A DNA stretch of 64,000 bases from Rubrobacter aplysinae (GTDB taxonomy: Bacteria > Actinomycetota > Rubrobacteria > Rubrobacterales > Rubrobacteraceae). The notes beneath the pieces were generated by a model. That model was not told where the DNA came from, did no database searches, and saw only the letters and a list, made by a program, of their open reading frames with translations. This document shows, in pieces, positions 10,651-35,814 of the stretch (the stretch's first letter is position 1; the number at the start of each line of letters is the position of its first letter). The translations under genes were made by a program, and so were the position numbers. The stretch spans positions 62,001 to 126,000 of the forward strand of contig NZ_LEKH01000003.1 of NCBI RefSeq assembly GCF_001029505.1. Reading direction: 5' to 3'.

Positions 10651-11826
10651 ATGGGTCGCAGAGCGGTGATAATGGTTCTGGACGGCGTCGGGGTCGGCAA
10701 CGCCCCGGACGCGGCGGAGTTCGGCGACGAGGGCTCGGACACCCTGGGTAACACGGCCCGCCGCGTGGGCGGCCTCTCGGTGCCCAACATGCAGGCTCTC
10801 GGCCTGGGCAACGTCCACGAGATACAGGGCGTCCCGCCCGCCGACTCCCCCCGGGCTTCCTGGGGTCTCGCCGTGGAGCACTCCGCCGCCAAGGCCACGC
10901 TGGCCGGGCACTGGGAGATGATGGGCCTCGTGCTGGACGAGCCGCTGCCGACGTATCCGCAAGGCTTCCCACCGGAGATAGTAGAGCGTTTCGAGCGGGA
11001 GACCGGGCGGCGGGTGATCGGCAACAAGCCTGCCTCGGGCACGGAGATACTCGAGGAACTGGGTCCCGAGCAGCAGTCTTCGGGGGATTGGATCGTCTAC
11101 ACCTCCGCCGACTCGGTGTTCCAGATCGCCGCCCACACGGGGGTAATACCGCTCGAAGAGCTGTACGAGGCTTGCGAGCGGGCCCACGAGATGCTCATTG
11201 GGGAGGGCCGGATCCTGGTCGAGCGCGTCATAGCCCGCCCGTATCACGGCGAGCCCGGAGCCTACGAGCGCGAGCACGGGAACCGCCACGACTACGGCAT
11301 CGAGCCCCACGCCCCGACCTACATGGACCACGTAAAGAGCTCCGGCAAGGAGAGCGTCGCCGTCGGCAAGATCCGGGACATCTTCGACGGCAAGGGCATC
11401 ACCGAGCATCTCCCCGGCAAGCCCGACGACGCGGCAAAGGTGGACGCCACGCTACAGGCGCTCGCCGGTGTGGACGAGGGCTTCGTCTTCGTGAACCTCG
11501 TGGACTTCGACGCCGAGTACGGCCACCGCCGCGACCCAGAGGGCATGGCGGCGAACCTCGCGCGCTTCGACGCCCGCGTGCCGGAGCTTCTGGAGGCTCT
11601 CACAGAGGAGGACCTCCTGATCCTGACCGCCGACCACGGCAACGACCCGACCTACTCCGGCACCGACCACACCCGGGAGCGCGTCCCCGTGCTCGCCGTC
11701 TCCGGGGGCGGCTCTCTGCCCGCCGAGATCGGCGTCCGGGACGGCTTCGCCGACCTAGGAGCGACCGTGGCGGACTGGCTCGGCGTGCAACGGGACGGTC
11801 TGCCCGGCAGGAGCCTGCTCTCGTGA
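10651..11826 (+). CDS. deoB: Phosphopentomutase
   Basis: Moves phosphate between C1 and C5 of ribose or deoxyribose, linking nucleoside phosphorolysis to the pentose phosphate pathway. The 391-residue protein has the alkaline-phosphatase-superfamily metal sites: MVLDGVGVGNAPD at the N-terminus, NLVDFDAEYGHRRD, and LTADHGNDPTYSGTDHTRE. ATG at 10651 has GCAGGAGGAG 5-6 bases upstream. Its stop overlaps the GTG start of the next gene (GTGA), so translation is probably coupled. Confidence 0.95.
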   Translation: MGRRAVIMVLDGVGVGNAPDAAEFGDEGSDTLGNTARRVGGLSVPNMQALGLGNVHEIQGVPPADSPRASWGLAVEHSAAKATLAGHWEMMGLVLDEPLPTYPQGFPPEIVERFERETGRRVIGNKPASGTEILEELGPEQQSSGDWIVYTSADSVFQIAAHTGVIPLEELYEACERAHEMLIGEGRILVERVIARPYHGEPGAYEREHGNRHDYGIEPHAPTYMDHVKSSGKESVAVGKIRDIFDGKGITEHLPGKPDDAAKVDATLQALAGVDEGFVFVNLVDFDAEYGHRRDPEGMAANLARFDARVPELLEALTEEDLLILTADHGNDPTYSGTDHTRERVPVLAVSGGGSLPAEIGVRDGFADLGATVADWLGVQRDGLPGRSLLS

Positions 11827-13088
11827 GCGCCGCACTGGAAGCCATAGAGGTCAAGAAGCGCGGCGGCGGGCTGCCGGAGGACATGATCCGGTCCGTCGTG
11901 GCGGGGTACGCGGCGGGCGAGGTGCCCGACTACCAGATGTCGGCGCTCTTGATGGCGATCTTCACCCGGGGGATGGTCTACGAGGAGACGCTGGCGCTGA
12001 CGGCGGCGATGGCGGACTCTGGCGGGCGGTACTCCTTCCCCGAGTGCGTCGACAAGCACTCCACGGGCGGGATCGGGGACAAGATCTCACTAACCTCCCT
12101 CCCGATAGCCGCGGCCTGCGGCGCGCCGGTCGCAAAGCTCTCCGGGCGCGGGCTCGGCCAGACCGGCGGCACGGTGGACAAGCTCGAGGCCATACCGGGC
12201 TTTACCTGCGACCTCTCCGAGAGCAGTTTCCGGCGGCAGGTAGAGGAGGTAGGGCTCGCCATAGTGGAGGCGGGCGAGGTCGCCCCGGCGGACAAGGAGA
12301 TCTACGCCCTGCGCGACGTTACGGGCACGGTGGACTCCCTGCCGCTCATCGGCTCCTCCATAGTCTCCAAGAAGGCCGCCACCGGTGCGGGTCACCTGCT
12401 GTACGACGTCAAGTGCGGCTCGGGGGCATTCATGAAGACCGCCGCCGAGGCGCGGGAGCTGGCGGAGCTACTGGTGAGGCTCTCCGAGTCACTGGGCATC
12501 CGGGCCTCGGCCCTCATAACCGGCATGGCCGAGCCGCTCGGCGCGGCGGTCGGCAACGCCCTGGAGCTGCGGGAGAGCCTCGCGCTGCTGCGGGGAGAGC
12601 CGGTCCCGGAGGACCTGGACCACGAGGCCCGGCTGGTCGCGGCCCGGCTGCTCTACCTCAAAGGCATCTCCGACGCCGAAGCAGCCGTGGATCGTGCCAT
12701 AAGCTCCGGCGCGGCGTACGAGAAGCTCCGGGAGTTCGTCGCCGCCCAGGGCGGCGAGGCGGATGCCCTGGAGTCGCTTGCCGTCTCGGAGGCGGTGCGC
12801 GAGGTGGTGGCCCCGGAGGGCGGCTACGTGGCCGGCTTCGACGCACTATCAATCGGTCAGGCCGCGCTCGTGCTGGGCGCCGGCCGGGAGAGGAAGACGG
12901 ACGCGGTGGATCACTCCGTCGGCGTGGAGGCGCTGGTCAAGGTCGGGGAGGAGATTGAGGCCGGGCAGCCCGTCGCCCGGCTGTACGGCGAGCGCCGGGC
13001 CGAGGAGGCCGAGAGGCTCGTGAAAGAGGCGCTCTCCCTCTCTTCCGGGAAGGTCGAGGCTCCCACTGCTATCCTGGACAGCTTGTAA
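11823..13088 (+). CDS. Pyrimidine-nucleoside / thymidine phosphorylase
   Basis: Splits thymidine, deoxyuridine or uridine with phosphate into base and (deoxy)ribose-1-phosphate. The 421-residue protein carries the family signature around SGRGLGQTGGTVDKLEAIPGF, plus KHSTGGIGDK and KCGSGAFMKT. The GTG at 11823 overlaps the deoB stop and gives a start, SAALEAIEVKKRGG, that matches the family. A longer open frame reaching back to 11088 is only a shadow of deoB. The C-terminal domain (VDHSVGVEALVKVGEEIEAGQPVARLY) is complete. Whether it prefers thymidine (DeoA) or several pyrimidine nucleosides (Pdp) is unclear. Confidence 0.93.
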   Translation: MSAALEAIEVKKRGGGLPEDMIRSVVAGYAAGEVPDYQMSALLMAIFTRGMVYEETLALTAAMADSGGRYSFPECVDKHSTGGIGDKISLTSLPIAAACGAPVAKLSGRGLGQTGGTVDKLEAIPGFTCDLSESSFRRQVEEVGLAIVEAGEVAPADKEIYALRDVTGTVDSLPLIGSSIVSKKAATGAGHLLYDVKCGSGAFMKTAAEARELAELLVRLSESLGIRASALITGMAEPLGAAVGNALELRESLALLRGEPVPEDLDHEARLVAARLLYLKGISDAEAAVDRAISSGAAYEKLREFVAAQGGEADALESLAVSEAVREVVAPEGGYVAGFDALSIGQAALVLGAGRERKTDAVDHSVGVEALVKVGEEIEAGQPVARLYGERRAEEAERLVKEALSLSSGKVEAPTAILDSL

Positions 13089-13172: not shown

Positions 13173-13886
13173 GTGAGCCCAGTACATCTGCGGGCAGAGC
13201 CCGGCGACTACGCGGACAGCGTCCTGCTGCCGGGCGACCCGCGCCGCGCCCAGTACATAGCCGAGACCTTCTTCGAGGCCCCGAAGCTCGTGAACGAGGA
13301 GCGCGGGATGCTCGGCTACACCGGCACCTACGGGGGACAGCCCGTCTCCGTACAGAGCACCGGCATGGGCTGCCCGAGCGCCTCCATCGTGACCGAGGAG
13401 CTGTATCAGCTCGGGGCCCGGAACCTGTTGAGGATCGGCACCTGCGGCGGTTACAGCCCCGAGATGTCGCTCGGGGATCTCGTGATCGCCACCGCCGCCA
13501 CCCCGATGGACGGCACCACCACAACCCTCACCCGCGGCATACCCTACGCCCCGGCGGCAGACTTCCACGCCGTACACGCCGCCTATCACGCCTCCGAAGG
13601 GTACGACGCACGGCCCCACCTCGGGCCCGTCGTGACCTCGGACGTGTTCTACGATCCCGAGGAAGAGCCCCAGGAGCTGTGGAACGGGCTCGGGGTTCTG
13701 GCCGTGGAGATGGAGGCGGCCTCGATCTTCACCATCTCGGCCATGCACGGGATACGCGCCGGGTGTCTTTTGACCGTCTCCGACACCATCGGCCTGGAGG
13801 TCACCCGCATAGGCGACGAGGCTCTCAGAAAGGCCGTGGACGACATGACCAGGCTGGCGCTCGACACCCTGAACGCTTTAGACTAG
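13173..13886 (+). CDS. deoD: Purine-nucleoside phosphorylase, DeoD type
   Basis: Hexameric-type phosphorylase that releases purine bases from nucleosides; 237 residues. Motifs: LLPGDPRRAQYIAE at the start, GTCGGYSPEMSLGDLVI in the middle and VEMEAASIF near residue 180. The GTG start at 13173 has GGAGGGAG 6 bases upstream. It is the last gene of the salvage operon that begins with nupC. The next gene on the same strand starts 118 bases downstream and is of an unrelated type. Confidence 0.93.
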   Translation: MSPVHLRAEPGDYADSVLLPGDPRRAQYIAETFFEAPKLVNEERGMLGYTGTYGGQPVSVQSTGMGCPSASIVTEELYQLGARNLLRIGTCGGYSPEMSLGDLVIATAATPMDGTTTTLTRGIPYAPAADFHAVHAAYHASEGYDARPHLGPVVTSDVFYDPEEEPQELWNGLGVLAVEMEAASIFTISAMHGIRAGCLLTVSDTIGLEVTRIGDEALRKAVDDMTRLALDTLNALD

Positions 13887-14004: not shown

Positions 14005-15408
14005 TTGACGATCCTCAACGAGTCCGGGGTCCCGGACGCCCTCTCCCCGCTATACGGGGTGGGCAGCCTCTGCGAGCGGCTGCCATACGCCCTGGTCGCC
14101 GTGGCCGGCACCCGGGCCGAGGCGCACCTGATCCAGACCCTCTCAGAGCTCGGCCCCGGCGCCCCCCGGCTCCCCGAGGGCTCTCGCGGCGTACAGGAGC
14201 CGGTGTATCTGGTGCTGGATCCCGCGTCGAACACCCCGGGCGTGGAGCAGGGCCAGCTCGCGACCAGGGTTATCGGGGCGGCATCTAGCCTGGCCTCCAG
14301 CGGCACGGGTCTCGTGCTGCTCCTGGTCTCCCGCTCGGCGCGTCTTCTGGGCGTGGACGCGGACTTCGAGGCCCGGCTGGCCGGGCGCAGGCTGGGGGTG
14401 CCGGTGCTCACCGTGGATCTCGCCCCCGAGGAAGATGGCGCCGGGGGCTCTCCCCCGCTTTCCACGGAGCTGGAGGACCGGGCGCTCGCCGCCCTGGTAG
14501 GACTCTGCCCGGGCGAAGAGCAGGCTCTGGAAGAGGCGTCGTCACAGGAGAAGCGTGGTGGCCTCTTCGGCGGCCGCCGACGGGGACGACAGCCGATTCG
14601 GGAAGGGGAAGCTCCTCCCCGGCAATCCCGGCACCGCCGGTCGGCGACGCTCATGAGCCTGCAGGCCGCTCCGGGCAGGGGCGGGCGCAGTCTGCGGGAG
14701 CTCTCCGCCGACATGGAGCGGGCCGGGGTGCCCTTGAACGGCAGCGTACCGGCCCCGACCGTGGAGGAGCTTCCGGTGCTCGGAGAAGGCTCCATCATCG
14801 CCCCGATGGACCCGTACCTGACCCTCTCCGCCGAAGCCGCCGCCGCGCGTGGTGCGGAGGTGGTCGAGACCATGCTGCCCATAGGGGTAGACGGCACGGC
14901 CCGATTCATACAGGACATCGCCGAGGCGACCGGGGCCGAGATCGGAGCCGGGGAGACGAGCCGGGCGCGCTCGGTGTGGGAGCGGCTCGGCGGCCTGCGG
15001 GGCCGCATCCGGGGCAAACGCTTCTTCCTGACCGGCGACACGGGGATCGAGATACCCCTGGCCCGGTTTCTGGCGGACGCCGGGGCGGTCGTCACGGAGG
15101 TCGGGACGCCGAGGCTGGACCGCCGCTTTCTGGCAGCCGAGCTGCAATCCCTGACCGGGCGCGGCGTGGACGTGGTGGAGTCGCCGGAGTGGAGCACCCA
15201 GCTCGACCGGGTGGACGCGGCAAAGCCCGACGTGGTGATAGCGAGCCCCGGGCTGTACGTACCGCTCGTGGCGCGGGGCTACCTGTGCCGCTCCTCTCTC
15301 GACTTTCTCGGGGCCGGCATCCACGGCTACGAGGGGGCGCGGCGCATCCTGGAGCTACTGGTGCGGACCATGGACCGCGCCGAGAACCTCGACGCGGTGG
15401 AGTTCTAG
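14005..15408 (+). CDS. BchN/NifD-like nitrogenase-superfamily protein, cluster cysteines mostly missing
   Basis: 467 residues resembling the N subunit of dark-operative protochlorophyllide reductase. The best evidence is the segment VAGTRAEAHLIQ (residues 32-44), which parallels the BchN stretch GTKTCAHFIQ, plus PIGVDGT at ~292 and the C-terminal GYLCRSSLDF...GIHGYEGARRILELL. Of the three BchN cysteines that ligate the [4Fe-4S] cluster, only C23 has a plausible counterpart; the GTKTCAH cysteine is Glu39, and the SCP-type cysteine near residue 110 is absent. Residues ~175-225 are an Arg-rich linker. TTG at 14005 follows GGGAGGG; no other start codon exists between the upstream in-frame stop and this point. 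Real function unknown. Confidence 0.75.
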   Translation: MTILNESGVPDALSPLYGVGSLCERLPYALVAVAGTRAEAHLIQTLSELGPGAPRLPEGSRGVQEPVYLVLDPASNTPGVEQGQLATRVIGAASSLASSGTGLVLLLVSRSARLLGVDADFEARLAGRRLGVPVLTVDLAPEEDGAGGSPPLSTELEDRALAALVGLCPGEEQALEEASSQEKRGGLFGGRRRGRQPIREGEAPPRQSRHRRSATLMSLQAAPGRGGRSLRELSADMERAGVPLNGSVPAPTVEELPVLGEGSIIAPMDPYLTLSAEAAAARGAEVVETMLPIGVDGTARFIQDIAEATGAEIGAGETSRARSVWERLGGLRGRIRGKRFFLTGDTGIEIPLARFLADAGAVVTEVGTPRLDRRFLAAELQSLTGRGVDVVESPEWSTQLDRVDAAKPDVVIASPGLYVPLVARGYLCRSSLDFLGAGIHGYEGARRILELLVRTMDRAENLDAVEF

Positions 15409-15409
15409 G

Positions 15410-16927
15410 GTGACCCAGAGAAACCAGAAGAGCCAGGGGAACCAAAGGAGCCAGAGAACGCAAAACAGCCCCGTAAAGCTACTGAGCGGTGTACACGAGG
15501 GCCCCGGCAGCCACGGGATGCTCCGGGTCTCGGCCGGTATCCGGGGGGTGCACACGATCCTGCGGGCCATGCCCGAGGAATGGTATCTACCCGCCCTGCT
15601 CGCCACGAAGGGCGAGTCTTCCGGCACCGAGCCCGCGCCGGTCTCCCTGAGCCCGCTGCATCGGGGTCCACGGCCGGAGGGCTCGCGGGCCCCGGGAGAT
15701 ACGAGGTCGGACATAACGAGTGCGGTGCGGCGCAATCCCCGGGCGGAGGCCTTCGTGTTCGCCCGCTCGGAGACCGCGTTGCTCTCGGGCGAGAAGCCCC
15801 CGAAGTTCGAGTTGCCCGAAGACGAGGAGACCGGGTGGTCCCCGAGGCTCGTAACCTGCCCCTGGGAGACGGCCCGGATGCGCGAGCACGAGGCCGCGGA
15901 CCTCGTCCTGGAAGAGCTCGTGCGCGCCTACGCCAGACCGCTCAAGAGGAGCGAGAGCCCGAGCGTAAACATATTCGGCCCGCCGATGTTCGGCCCGAAC
16001 GCCCGGGCCGAGATGGACGAGGCGGCGCGGCTGCTAGAGAAGATCGGGGTCGAGGTGAACGCCCGGCTCCCGCTCGGGGCCGGCGTGGAGGATCTCAAGC
16101 GCCTGCCGCGGGCGTGGGCGAACCTCGTGCTGTACCGGGAGGTCGGGGACTCGGCGACGCTGTATCTGCGCGACGAGTTCGGCATCCCGCGCGTCACGAC
16201 GCCCATGATCGGGGCCGCCGGTACCGGCTCCGTCCTGAGGAGCGTGGGGTCGCTCTGCTCGCTGGATCCCCGCCAGGTTCAACGGGCCACCTTCTCGGAG
16301 CTCTCCCAGACCGCCCGGCTGCCGTGGTATGCCCGGCTCGCCTCACCCGAGACCTTCGCCGGCAGGAGGGTCGCGATCTTCGGGGACTTCACCTACGCCG
16401 TCGGCCTCGGGTACGTCCTGGCGCGGGAGGTGGGTCTGGAGATCGCGCCCTGCGGCACTTACATGGAGCATCTGCGGCAGGACTTCCTGTTCCAGGCCTC
16501 ATCCTTTACCGACGAGGCCTTCGCCACCGACGACCCGGAGGAGGCCGCGGCCCGCATCGAAGGAGCGCGTCCGGACCTCGTGATCGGCACCCACCTCGAG
16601 GAGAAGGTTGCGGAGTCGCTCGGGGTACCTTTCCTGCCGCTCGTCCCGCCTACCGCCCACGAGTCCCTCGTGGAGCAGCCGCTGATGGGCTACGCGGGGT
16701 CCAGCATCCTGGCGGATCACCTGCGCGGCGCTTTAAGGAAGGTGCCGCGCGACACGGTCCAGGGCGAGGACGGGCCCGGGGTACCGTGGACCGAGGGGGC
16801 CCTGGAGGAGTTGGAGAACATCTCTCCGTTTCTCAGGGGCCGGGCGAGGAGAATGGCCGAGGAGCGCGCCCGCGAGCGCGGCTCGGCCGAGGTCACCCGG
16901 CGCATCCTGCGCGAGTCCCGATCCTAG
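15410..16927 (+). CDS. BchB/NifK-like nitrogenase-superfamily protein with DPOR C-terminal domain
   Basis: 505 residues with clear similarity to BchB of dark-operative protochlorophyllide reductase: HEGPGSHGMLRVSAGIRGVH (~29-48), NIFGPPMFG (~187), PLGAGVEDLKRLPRAWANLVLY written in parts as PLGAG then NLVLYREV, AIFGDFTYA (~322), DLVIGTHLEEKVAESLG (~389), and the BchB-specific tail WTEGALEELENISPFLRGRARR (460-481; core FLRGRARR). The BchB SCTAEL motif is SETALL here (Glu121), and Asp36, the cluster ligand of BchB, aligns with a Glu. The GTG at 15410 lies one base after the upstream stop. The first ~21 residues are encoded by a 9-bp repeat and precede the conserved start. Confidence 0.8.
   Translation: MTQRNQKSQGNQRSQRTQNSPVKLLSGVHEGPGSHGMLRVSAGIRGVHTILRAMPEEWYLPALLATKGESSGTEPAPVSLSPLHRGPRPEGSRAPGDTRSDITSAVRRNPRAEAFVFARSETALLSGEKPPKFELPEDEETGWSPRLVTCPWETARMREHEAADLVLEELVRAYARPLKRSESPSVNIFGPPMFGPNARAEMDEAARLLEKIGVEVNARLPLGAGVEDLKRLPRAWANLVLYREVGDSATLYLRDEFGIPRVTTPMIGAAGTGSVLRSVGSLCSLDPRQVQRATFSELSQTARLPWYARLASPETFAGRRVAIFGDFTYAVGLGYVLAREVGLEIAPCGTYMEHLRQDFLFQASSFTDEAFATDDPEEAAARIEGARPDLVIGTHLEEKVAESLGVPFLPLVPPTAHESLVEQPLMGYAGSSILADHLRGALRKVPRDTVQGEDGPGVPWTEGALEELENISPFLRGRARRMAEERARERGSAEVTRRILRESRS
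15413..15466. repeat. 9-bp tandem repeat inserted at the start of the BchB-like gene
   Basis: Six consecutive 9-base units with consensus ARCCARAGN (for example aaccagaag, agccagggg, agccagaga) fill the space between the GTG start and the codon where BchB homologues normally begin (VKLLSGVHEGP). They add a Gln/Asn/Ser/Arg-rich leader to the protein. Confidence 0.8.
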
Positions 16928-16977: not shown

Positions 16978-17451
16978 ATGCAAGGTGAGATCTGTACCGG
17001 ATCCGCGCGCGTGGAAGAGGCCGGACAAATACTCAAGCTACAGTATCTGTGCTTCCAGTCTCAAGCCGCTCTCTACAGGGACTACTCCCTGCCACCGCTC
17101 ACCCAGACGCTGCGGGAGCTGCTCCGAGAGTACGATCACAAGGAGATTCTCGCCGCCCGGCTCGGCGGCGAGATTGTAGGCTCGGTGCGCGCGGAGATGG
17201 AGGCCGGAGTCTGCTCAATACAACGCCTCATCGTCCACCCAAAGCTGCAAGGCACCGGCCTGGGTAGCAGGCTAATGCGGGAGATCGAAGCCGGCTTCCC
17301 CGGCGCCGATAGCTTCGGGCTGTGTACCGGACACAAGAGCGGCCCCAGCCTGCGGCTCTACCGTGGTCTCGGCTACGAGGCCTACCGCGAGGAGGCGGAG
17401 TCGCCAAGCGTAACCCTGATTCACATGCGCAAACCCAACCTGGGCGAGTGA
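16978..17451 (+). CDS. GNAT-family N-acetyltransferase
   Basis: 157-residue acetyltransferase. The acetyl-CoA binding stretch is IVHPKLQGTGLGSRLMREIE at about residue 80, followed by GPSLRLYRGLGYEAYRE. The acceptor is unknown. It starts 50 bases after the BchB-like gene but appears to have its own promoter and no Shine-Dalgarno, so it may not belong to that unit. Confidence 0.87.
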   Translation: MQGEICTGSARVEEAGQILKLQYLCFQSQAALYRDYSLPPLTQTLRELLREYDHKEILAARLGGEIVGSVRAEMEAGVCSIQRLIVHPKLQGTGLGSRLMREIEAGFPGADSFGLCTGHKSGPSLRLYRGLGYEAYREEAESPSVTLIHMRKPNLGE

Positions 17452-17572: not shown

Positions 17573-17854
17573 TTGGGCATCAGAGACTTCATACAGTACC
17601 TCCAGGAGCACCGCGAGAAGCTACAGAGGTCGCAGAAGCTACCCGAACAGGTCCGCGAGGAGACGCTCAAGGAGGCGGATACGATGGTCGGCATGGCCGA
17701 CGCCGCCATCAAGGACCTGGACTCCGTGCTGAATAACCGCCGCGTCAACCTGAACGAGGAGCACGCGCTGCGCTTTGCCCAGGACGTCTTCACCCACCTC
17801 AGAGAAGATGAGGAGCGGGTAAAAGAGGCCCTGCGCGCCCCCGACGAAGGCTAG
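17573..17854 (+). CDS. Small helical protein of unknown function
   Basis: 93 residues, highly charged, predicted almost entirely helical and possibly coiled-coil (IQYLQEHREKLQRSQ, then EEHALRFAQDVFTHLREDEERVKE). No signal peptide or membrane segment. The TTG start has GGGAG 6 bases upstream and a TATAAT box further up, which supports it as a real gene. No family is recognised with confidence. Confidence 0.7.
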   Translation: MGIRDFIQYLQEHREKLQRSQKLPEQVREETLKEADTMVGMADAAIKDLDSVLNNRRVNLNEEHALRFAQDVFTHLREDEERVKEALRAPDEG

Positions 17855-18123: not shown

Positions 18124-19245
18124 TTGATCCGCAGATCTCGAGCAGTGTTCCCCATGTTACCTATCATGACGGCGCTGTTGACCCTGGCGCTGGTGGCCGC
18201 CGGCTGCTCCTCCGAGGGCAACACCCAGGACCAAAGCTCCGAGACCCGTCAGGAGAACGTCGCGCAGGGACCGCCGGACATGTCCTCTTCGGAGGTCCCC
18301 GGGGAAGAGCCCGTCGCCCGGGTGGCGGACCAGCTCCGGCCCTCGGTGGTGCAGATAAACGTGCAGTCCGTCGAGGAGACCCCCTACGGACCGCAGCGGG
18401 GCGAGGGCGTGGGGAGCGGCGTGATCTACCGCCAGGACGGCTACATAATCACCAACAACCACGTGGTCCAGGGCTCCGGCAACGTCGAGGTCGGGTTCGC
18501 CAGCGGGGACACCGCGAGCGCCGAGGTGGTCGGCGGCGACCCGTTCACCGACATAGCGGTGGTCAAGGTGGACCGCGGCGACCTCCCGGCCGCGAGCTTC
18601 AGGACGGAGCACAATCTCGACGTGGGCCAGCTCGCGGTCGCCATCGGCAGCCCCCAGGGCTTCGACTCCACGGTGACGGCGGGCGTGGTCAGCGGCCTGG
18701 GCCGGGAGGTTCCGGCCAACCTTACCGGCGGCACCCAGGAGGCGTCGCTCGTGGACCTCGTCCAGACCGACGCCGCCATCTCTCCCGGCAGCTCGGGCGG
18801 GGCACTGGTGGACCGCTCGGGCCGGATAATCGGTATCAACGTGGCCTATCTGCCGCCGGCGCAGACCGGCGCGGAGAGCATCGGCTTCGCCATCCCATCC
18901 CAGACCGCCGTGCAGACCGCGGATCAGCTAATCTCTACCGGGCAGGCCTCGAACGCCTACCTCGGGGTCAGGCTCTCCGACGTGAACCAGGAGACCGCCG
19001 AGCAGTTCGACACCCAGGCCGGGGCGCTGGTCGAGCAGGCGCCGCAAGGGGAACCCGCATCACAGGCCGGTATACGGCAGGGCGACATAATCACCGCCGT
19101 GGACGGGCGCGAGGTGGAGAACACCGGAGACCTCCTCTCCGCGCTCCGGCGCTACCAGCCGGGTGATACCGTGGAGATAACCCTCGTGCGCAACGGCGGC
19201 AACGAAACCACCGTAAACGTCACACTCGGCGAACGCAGTCAGTAA
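18124..19245 (+). CDS. HtrA/DegP-like serine protease lipoprotein with PDZ domain
   Basis: Extracytoplasmic protein-quality-control protease, 373 residues. A lipoprotein signal ends in LVAAGC (C28). The trypsin-like domain has its catalytic triad: H113 in TNNHV, D143 in FTDIAVV, and S224 in PGSSGGALVD. One PDZ domain (about 275-365) shows NAYLGVRLSDV and GDIITAVDGREVENTGDLL. Only one PDZ is present, as in many actinobacterial homologues. The TTG start at 18124 has CAGGAGG 8-9 bases upstream. It probably sits on the outer face of the membrane and degrades or chaperones misfolded proteins. Confidence 0.93.
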   Translation: MIRRSRAVFPMLPIMTALLTLALVAAGCSSEGNTQDQSSETRQENVAQGPPDMSSSEVPGEEPVARVADQLRPSVVQINVQSVEETPYGPQRGEGVGSGVIYRQDGYIITNNHVVQGSGNVEVGFASGDTASAEVVGGDPFTDIAVVKVDRGDLPAASFRTEHNLDVGQLAVAIGSPQGFDSTVTAGVVSGLGREVPANLTGGTQEASLVDLVQTDAAISPGSSGGALVDRSGRIIGINVAYLPPAQTGAESIGFAIPSQTAVQTADQLISTGQASNAYLGVRLSDVNQETAEQFDTQAGALVEQAPQGEPASQAGIRQGDIITAVDGREVENTGDLLSALRRYQPGDTVEITLVRNGGNETTVNVTLGERSQ

Positions 19246-20674: not shown

Positions 20675-20758
20675 TAGGGGCGGTGGGACTCGAACCCACA
20701 CTCCTATGCAGGAAACGGATTTTAAGTCCGGTGCGTCTACCGATTCCGCCACGCCCCC
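20675..20758 (-). tRNA. tRNA-Leu, anticodon TAA
   Basis: An 84-base class II tRNA. The acceptor stem GGGGGCG pairs with CGCCCCT (one G-U), the T-arm GTGGGTTCGAGTCCCAC is perfect, and the anticodon loop reads CT-TAA-AA. The long variable arm fits leucine. No CCA is encoded. A promoter lies just upstream. Confidence 0.97.
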
Positions 20759-35743: not shown

Positions 35744-35814
35744 CTGGGGCGGCAGGATTCGAACCTGCGATCCCGGGACCAAAACCCGGTGCCTTGCCGC
35801 TTGGCTACGCCCCA
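35744..35814 (-). tRNA. tRNA-Gln, anticodon TTG
   Basis: A 71-base tRNA. The acceptor stem TGGGGCG pairs with CGCCCCA, the anticodon loop reads TT-TTG-GT between CCGGG and CCCGG, and the T-arm GCAGGTTCGAATCCTGC is perfect. No CCA is encoded. It lies upstream of glmU on the same strand. Confidence 0.97.

Follow-up and report, generated by a model that had tools for sequence, protein, structure and literature searches.

Genes annotated as protochlorophyllide reductase occur in Rubrobacteraceae and have been used as an argument for once-photosynthetic Actinobacteria, which raises the question of what the encoded proteins do in this family. We examined one such locus in Rubrobacter aplysinae, within a window of 64,000 nucleotides (the whole stretch of DNA that was analysed) from a 3.19-Mb genome assembled into 33 contigs and 98.9% complete. 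Rubrobacter homologues of BchB and BchN were reported by Gupta & Khadka 2016 (according to PMC4783071, PMC7203096 and PMC9561532) and were read there, as cited in PMC4783071 and PMC7203096, as possible signs of ancestral photosynthesis or an ancestral DPOR. In the passages of the citing papers covered here, PMC7901476 described the gene pair as common to Rubrobacter genomes and judged it no sign of phototrophy, and PMC7203096 speculated on a different function for it. Judging from these citing papers, the homologues of 2016 are the genes described below, and the gene pair itself has been known in Rubrobacter since that year. The passages covered here from the papers citing Gupta & Khadka 2016 make no mention of ligand loss, acidic replacements, a fixed deoA-PNP-N-B-c5 block or c5.

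A pair related to BchN and BchB

The pair, referred to here as N and B, lies among the following features:

11823-13088, plus strand: deoA-type pyrimidine-nucleoside/thymidine phosphorylase, opening the conserved block
13173-13886, plus strand: DeoD-type purine-nucleoside phosphorylase (PNP), upstream of N in the conserved block
14005-15408, plus strand: BchN-like subunit N, 467 aa, TTG start
15409-15472, plus strand: N-B spacer or 21-aa low-complexity N-terminal extension, with 9/18-bp imperfect tandem repeats
15473-16927, plus strand: BchB-like subunit B, 484 aa from the conserved start, 505 aa from GTG 15410
16978-17451, plus strand: GNAT acetyltransferase, between B and c5
17573-17854, plus strand: c5, a helical protein of 93 aa, conserved; proposed third component
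18124-19245, plus strand: HtrA-type trypsin/PDZ protease, downstream of c5

The window also holds two tRNA genes, both on the minus strand (20675-20758 and 35744-35814).

An earlier note on this DNA, made without database searches, had likened the two proteins to the N and B subunits of light-independent protochlorophyllide reductase (DPOR), and profile and structure searches agree with it. Both match PF00148, the nitrogenase component 1 family (E = 3.2e-22 for N, 1.1e-43 for B), and their closest PDB structures are ChlN/BchN for N and ChlB/BchB for B. The C-terminal domain of BchB, also recognised earlier, is present on B as PCP_red (E = 7.7e-10); it is missing from B in four genomes of one genus (L031-L034). 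Against the NCBIfam models, N scored 207 bits to DPOR_bchN (cut-off 420), and B scored 264 bits to DPOR_BchB (cut-off 490) and 417 bits to PRK02910.1-3 (cut-off 509). Scores to BchY (45 bits), BchZ (70), NifD (25) and NifE (37) were low compared to the 207-417 bits for BchN and BchB. Since N and B fall under every equivalog cut-off, they are relatives of BchN and BchB that do not reach DPOR equivalog scores.

The AF2 model obtained for N (pLDDT 79.8, pTM 0.82) matched ChlN (2xdq_A; E = 3.9e-27, TM 0.73/0.80), which indicates that N has the nitrogenase component 1 fold; B is assigned the same fold from its sequence. The possibility, raised earlier, that the fold is not adopted thus found no support, through the model for N and through sequence matches for B.

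We placed the proteins in a tree of N- and B-type sequences that included Nif proteins and left out BchY and BchZ, so that the wider comparison proposed in the earlier note was made in this tree for BchN, BchB and Nif only. The Rubrobacteraceae N proteins grouped with BchN (support 100/99) and the B proteins with BchB (100/97), the branching order inside these clades being unsettled. The stems leading to N and B were equally long (1.04 and 1.05 changes per site), as expected from one shift of a two-subunit unit. Neither the tree with Nif proteins nor the profile scores to NifD, NifE, BchY and BchZ placed the pair closer to NifDK, NifEN or BchYZ than to BchNB.

The 1-base gap originally described between N and B applies if GTG 15410 is used as the start of B; in relatives, B begins at the residue equivalent to GTG 15473, not GTG 15410. 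Between N and this conserved start lies a 9/18-bp imperfect tandem repeat (CCAGAGGAG-type; 56 bases, 15415-15470), which may add 21 residues to the N-terminus of B if translation starts at GTG 15410, and this extension is unconserved among relatives. The N and B genes overlap or are in near-contact in several relatives. Most relatives also share the TTG start of N, followed by a highly conserved N-terminus (TILNESG), and this start may be a pointer to translational control.

Conserved loss of the cluster ligands

The [4Fe-4S] cluster of the DPOR NB component is held by three BchN cysteines and BchB Asp36 (PMC12518044), and BchB Asp274 is the catalytic proton donor (PMC4157233, PMC12518044). 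For the residue comparison we used BchNB of Roseobacter litoralis and Thiodictyon as references. Cys26, Cys51, Cys112 and Trp387 are cited in R. capsulatus BchN numbering, offset by 3 from R. litoralis. In the window, the three cysteine positions of N are taken by Ser14, Glu39 and Arg110, the last standing where the third BchN cysteine had already been noticed to be missing. B has Glu57 in place of Asp36, Glu121 in place of Cys95 (the cysteine of SCTAEL), Ser at Asp274 and Ala at His378; the two glutamates, too, had been read correctly from the letters alone. Aligned with BchNB, the ligand replacements recurred in about 30 relatives, in every one with coverage, and no family member was found with the cysteines intact, a state that would have made the present pair look like a decayed copy.

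The replacements are of a restricted kind at the former ligand sites. The Cys51 position (N39) is Glu or Asp in all Rubrobacteraceae sequences with coverage, the Asp36 position (B57) is Glu in 25 of 25 aligned sequences, and the Cys95 position (B121) is Glu or Asp throughout the family. The Cys112 position (N110) is nearly always Arg, with Trp, His and Leu also occurring in relatives, and the Cys26 position (N14) is variable (Ser, Pro, Ala or His). In the Asp274 column the relatives have Ser, Pro, Arg, Thr, Val or Ala and never Asp, and His378 is lost in all aligned relatives. B Arg119, two residues ahead of Glu121, is invariant. Each subunit has gained one family-invariant cysteine, N Cys428 (two columns before BchN Trp387) and B Cys283, and no histidine is invariant in the family alignments of N or B. 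A change from Cys to Glu requires all three codon bases to be replaced, which makes drift alone an unlikely cause.

One way to read the conserved carboxylates is as a new metal site (e.g. for Mn, Mg or Fe), which would make the pair a nitrogenase-fold metalloenzyme with an unprecedented cofactor. In its favour, N39, B57 and B121 are acidic in every sequence; assuming a conserved fold, for which the structural match of N speaks, the three acids would come together where N and B join. However, invariant histidines are lacking in both subunits, N39 and B121 switch between Glu and Asp, and the invariant Arg119 so close to Glu121 suits a salt bridge better. We therefore consider a metal site unlikely, though the least unlikely of the rival explanations.

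B was found in 34 of the 39 genomes of the order Rubrobacterales, in all 13 genera, so that the pair does co-occur across related genomes as a real unit was expected to. The five genomes without B (G017, G018, G031, G032 and G037) are all draft assemblies and also lack c5 and the PNP of the block, so by all signs the locus is missing from them as a whole, perhaps through loss in assembly. N and B are both under purifying selection, with dN/dS of 0.09-0.30 in seven pairwise comparisons per gene. A decaying remnant left behind after loss of the cofactor would fit the lost catalytic residues and the disappearance of PCP_red from the four genomes mentioned above, but it is contradicted by purifying selection in every pair tested, many invariant columns, open frames with few stops and a gene block fixed across the family's genera. 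Pseudogene status was accordingly rejected on the basis of dN/dS, conservation and presence in most genomes, and we regard decay as the least probable explanation of all.

The absence of a BchL/NifH-type ATPase, seen earlier in the window, extends to all genomes searched: none of the 39 scored above the cut-off for BchL (TIGR01281, DPOR_bchL), the top score being 33.6 bits against 345. Searching the window's genome with PF00142 and TIGR01281 gave four weak matches, all of them ParA/Soj, Mrp or ArsA-like proteins, and a hidden BchL/NifH was rejected because these searches came nowhere near the cut-off in the family. As to a chlorophyll-pathway setting, the same genome has a single CobN/BchH-family protein (L128), taken by eye for a cobaltochelatase-type protein.

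L-N-B sets that have kept their cluster ligands occur in two further Actinomycetota, G223 and G043. The G223 set (L106:7106-10632, contig C99) keeps all NB-cluster ligands and has Asn at both Asp274 and His378; its B has a PCP_red-like C-terminus, seen in sequence. The cluster adjoins two B12-binding radical SAM-like genes and genes with multihaem-like CxxCH motifs, and the set is possibly a nitrogenase-like redox enzyme acting on another substrate. In the G043 set (L107:2095-5374, contig C4), the N cysteines and Asp36 are intact and L scores above the DPOR_bchL cut-off; B has a short C-terminus with no PCP_red seen and is without Cys95. Both sets resemble the Rubrobacteraceae pair in phylum and in their DPOR-like N and B, but differ from it in keeping BchL and the NB-cluster ligands. 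Nitrogenase-like frames were also seen elsewhere: plasmid pMaq22A_1p of Methylobacterium aquaticum has two unannotated ones (L036:2653-5981). An 880-aa frame of genome G011 (L110:815-3454) combines apparent universal-stress-protein-like domains, several PCP_red-like stretches and rubredoxin-like CxxC motifs, and many Rubrobacteraceae have C-terminal matches similar to it.

A sample of about 357 Actinomycetota from outside the family yielded no gene that could be assigned to the cluster-less type; its few matches were other nitrogenase-like proteins, the two best of which retain the cysteines. A scan of named genomes, with patterns derived from the Rubrobacteraceae family itself, matched only Rubrobacteraceae or unplaced actinobacterial records.

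The cluster cysteines are shared by the wider nitrogenase superfamily. Since BchN, G223 and G043 have them as well, their absence from Rubrobacteraceae is derived rather than ancestral. This bears on the view that the genes encode a functional or ancestral DPOR, a leftover or precursor of photosynthesis (the reading of Gupta & Khadka 2016, per PMC4783071 and PMC7203096). The grouping of N with BchN and B with BchB, the N-B gene order and the PCP_red domain speak in its favour. Yet the cluster ligands, Asp274 and His378 are all lost, BchL is absent, the cysteines found alike in BchN/ChlN, G223 and G043 mark the Rubrobacteraceae state as derived, and the authors of PMC7901476, in the passages covered, likewise judged that the genes do not mean phototrophy. 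We consider this explanation very improbable.

The gene block and a proposed third component

The nucleoside salvage genes noticed next to the pair, deoA and PNP, proved to belong to a fixed block. The order PNP-N-B-c5 on one strand was found in 21 of 21 loci compared, and deoA stands ahead of PNP in every locus where the contig extends far enough. The GNAT gene between B and c5 is peculiar to the window (0 of 20 other loci) and is probably not a member of the unit. An HtrA-type protease gene lies 3' of c5 in most relatives, though not in the divergent genus g11; although adjacent, it probably lies outside the unit.

Treating N-B as a two-gene unit, as was done at first, overlooked c5 (17573-17854). 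The presence of c5 and of B coincides in the identical 34 family genomes, and c5 shows the highest conservation among the three proteins (mean column identity 74%, compared to 61-64% for N and B). It matched no family in Pfam or NCBIfam. Its AF2 model (pLDDT 86) has three helices, and a fold search with it returned a generic three-helix bundle whose top match, a mite allergen (E = 0.05), is uninformative. The c5 sequence shows neither a conserved cysteine nor anything recognisable as an ATP- or Fe-S-binding motif.

These features matter for the idea of an oxidoreductase with another redox centre (the N428/B283 cysteines, a flavin or a tetrapyrrole) and another electron donor, perhaps with c5 replacing BchL. 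The new invariant cysteine in each subunit, that of N lying near BchN Trp387, could be taken to point this way. Lone cysteines in separate subunits are unable to hold a cubane cluster, however, and c5 lacks both these motifs and a conserved cysteine. We think this somewhat less likely than the metal site.

A probable repurposed complex

N-B is probably a repurposed protein complex that does not testify to photosynthesis. More specifically, we favour, at a probability of roughly 55%, a secondarily cluster-less NB component that acts as a non-redox, ligand-binding N2B2 complex, with or without c5, tied to nucleoside salvage. Of the three readings first offered for the locus, a repurposed non-redox complex fits best, and one using a different cofactor, in the form of a carboxylate metal site, is less likely. 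The usual nitrogenase-like oxidoreductase is disfavoured because BchL/NifH, the cluster ligands and Asp274 are all absent.

Fold and homology make it most likely that N and B still assemble as an N2B2 heterotetramer. The former [4Fe-4S] cavity at the N-B interface would then be lined by N Glu39, B Glu57 and B Glu121 together with two arginines, the invariant B Arg119 and the usual N Arg110. These acids and arginines may fill the cavity with a network of salt bridges; a site for a divalent metal is less likely. Without BchL/NifH and Asp274, such a complex would neither take up electrons in an ATP-driven manner nor reduce protochlorophyllide. The pocket beside the cluster site, remodelled yet conserved and containing the new N Cys428, most likely has another small molecule as its ligand, and c5 may dock onto N-B. 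A part in nucleoside/pentose salvage, whether regulatory, scaffolding or catalytic, is suggested by the fixed deoA-PNP-N-B-c5 block; gene order is the whole basis of this weakest step, and operon neighbours can differ in function. We put forward only tentatively the bolder proposal that the Fe-S cluster was swapped for a carboxylate site (metal or salt bridges), with c5 as a subunit and a ligand from nucleoside metabolism, which would be the first Fe-S-free, NifH-independent function of the fold, universal in one family.

Compared to BchNB/ChlNB, the repurposed pair is alike in fold, subunit pair, N-B order, the C-terminal PCP_red on B, the EGP and GD motifs and its place inside the BchN-like and BchB-like clades. 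It is unlike them in lacking the three N cysteines, B Asp36, Asp274, His378 and BchL, in scoring below the equivalog cut-offs, and in having an extra partner, c5, and a different operon. A model for repurposing of the nitrogenase fold is NifEN, a heterotetramer of this fold that serves as a scaffold and does not reduce a substrate of its own. Unlike N-B, NifEN still carries an Fe-S cluster and has NifH and NifB as partners, and its sequence similarity to N-B is weak.

For the family, the conserved loss of the cluster ligands, the catalytic Asp and BchL speaks against the use of these genes as an argument for past photosynthesis and against their annotation. Confirmation of the complex would make it a case of the nitrogenase fold being retained by selection after the loss of its defining cofactor, the cluster's place being taken by three acids and two arginines, with a new partner protein beside it.
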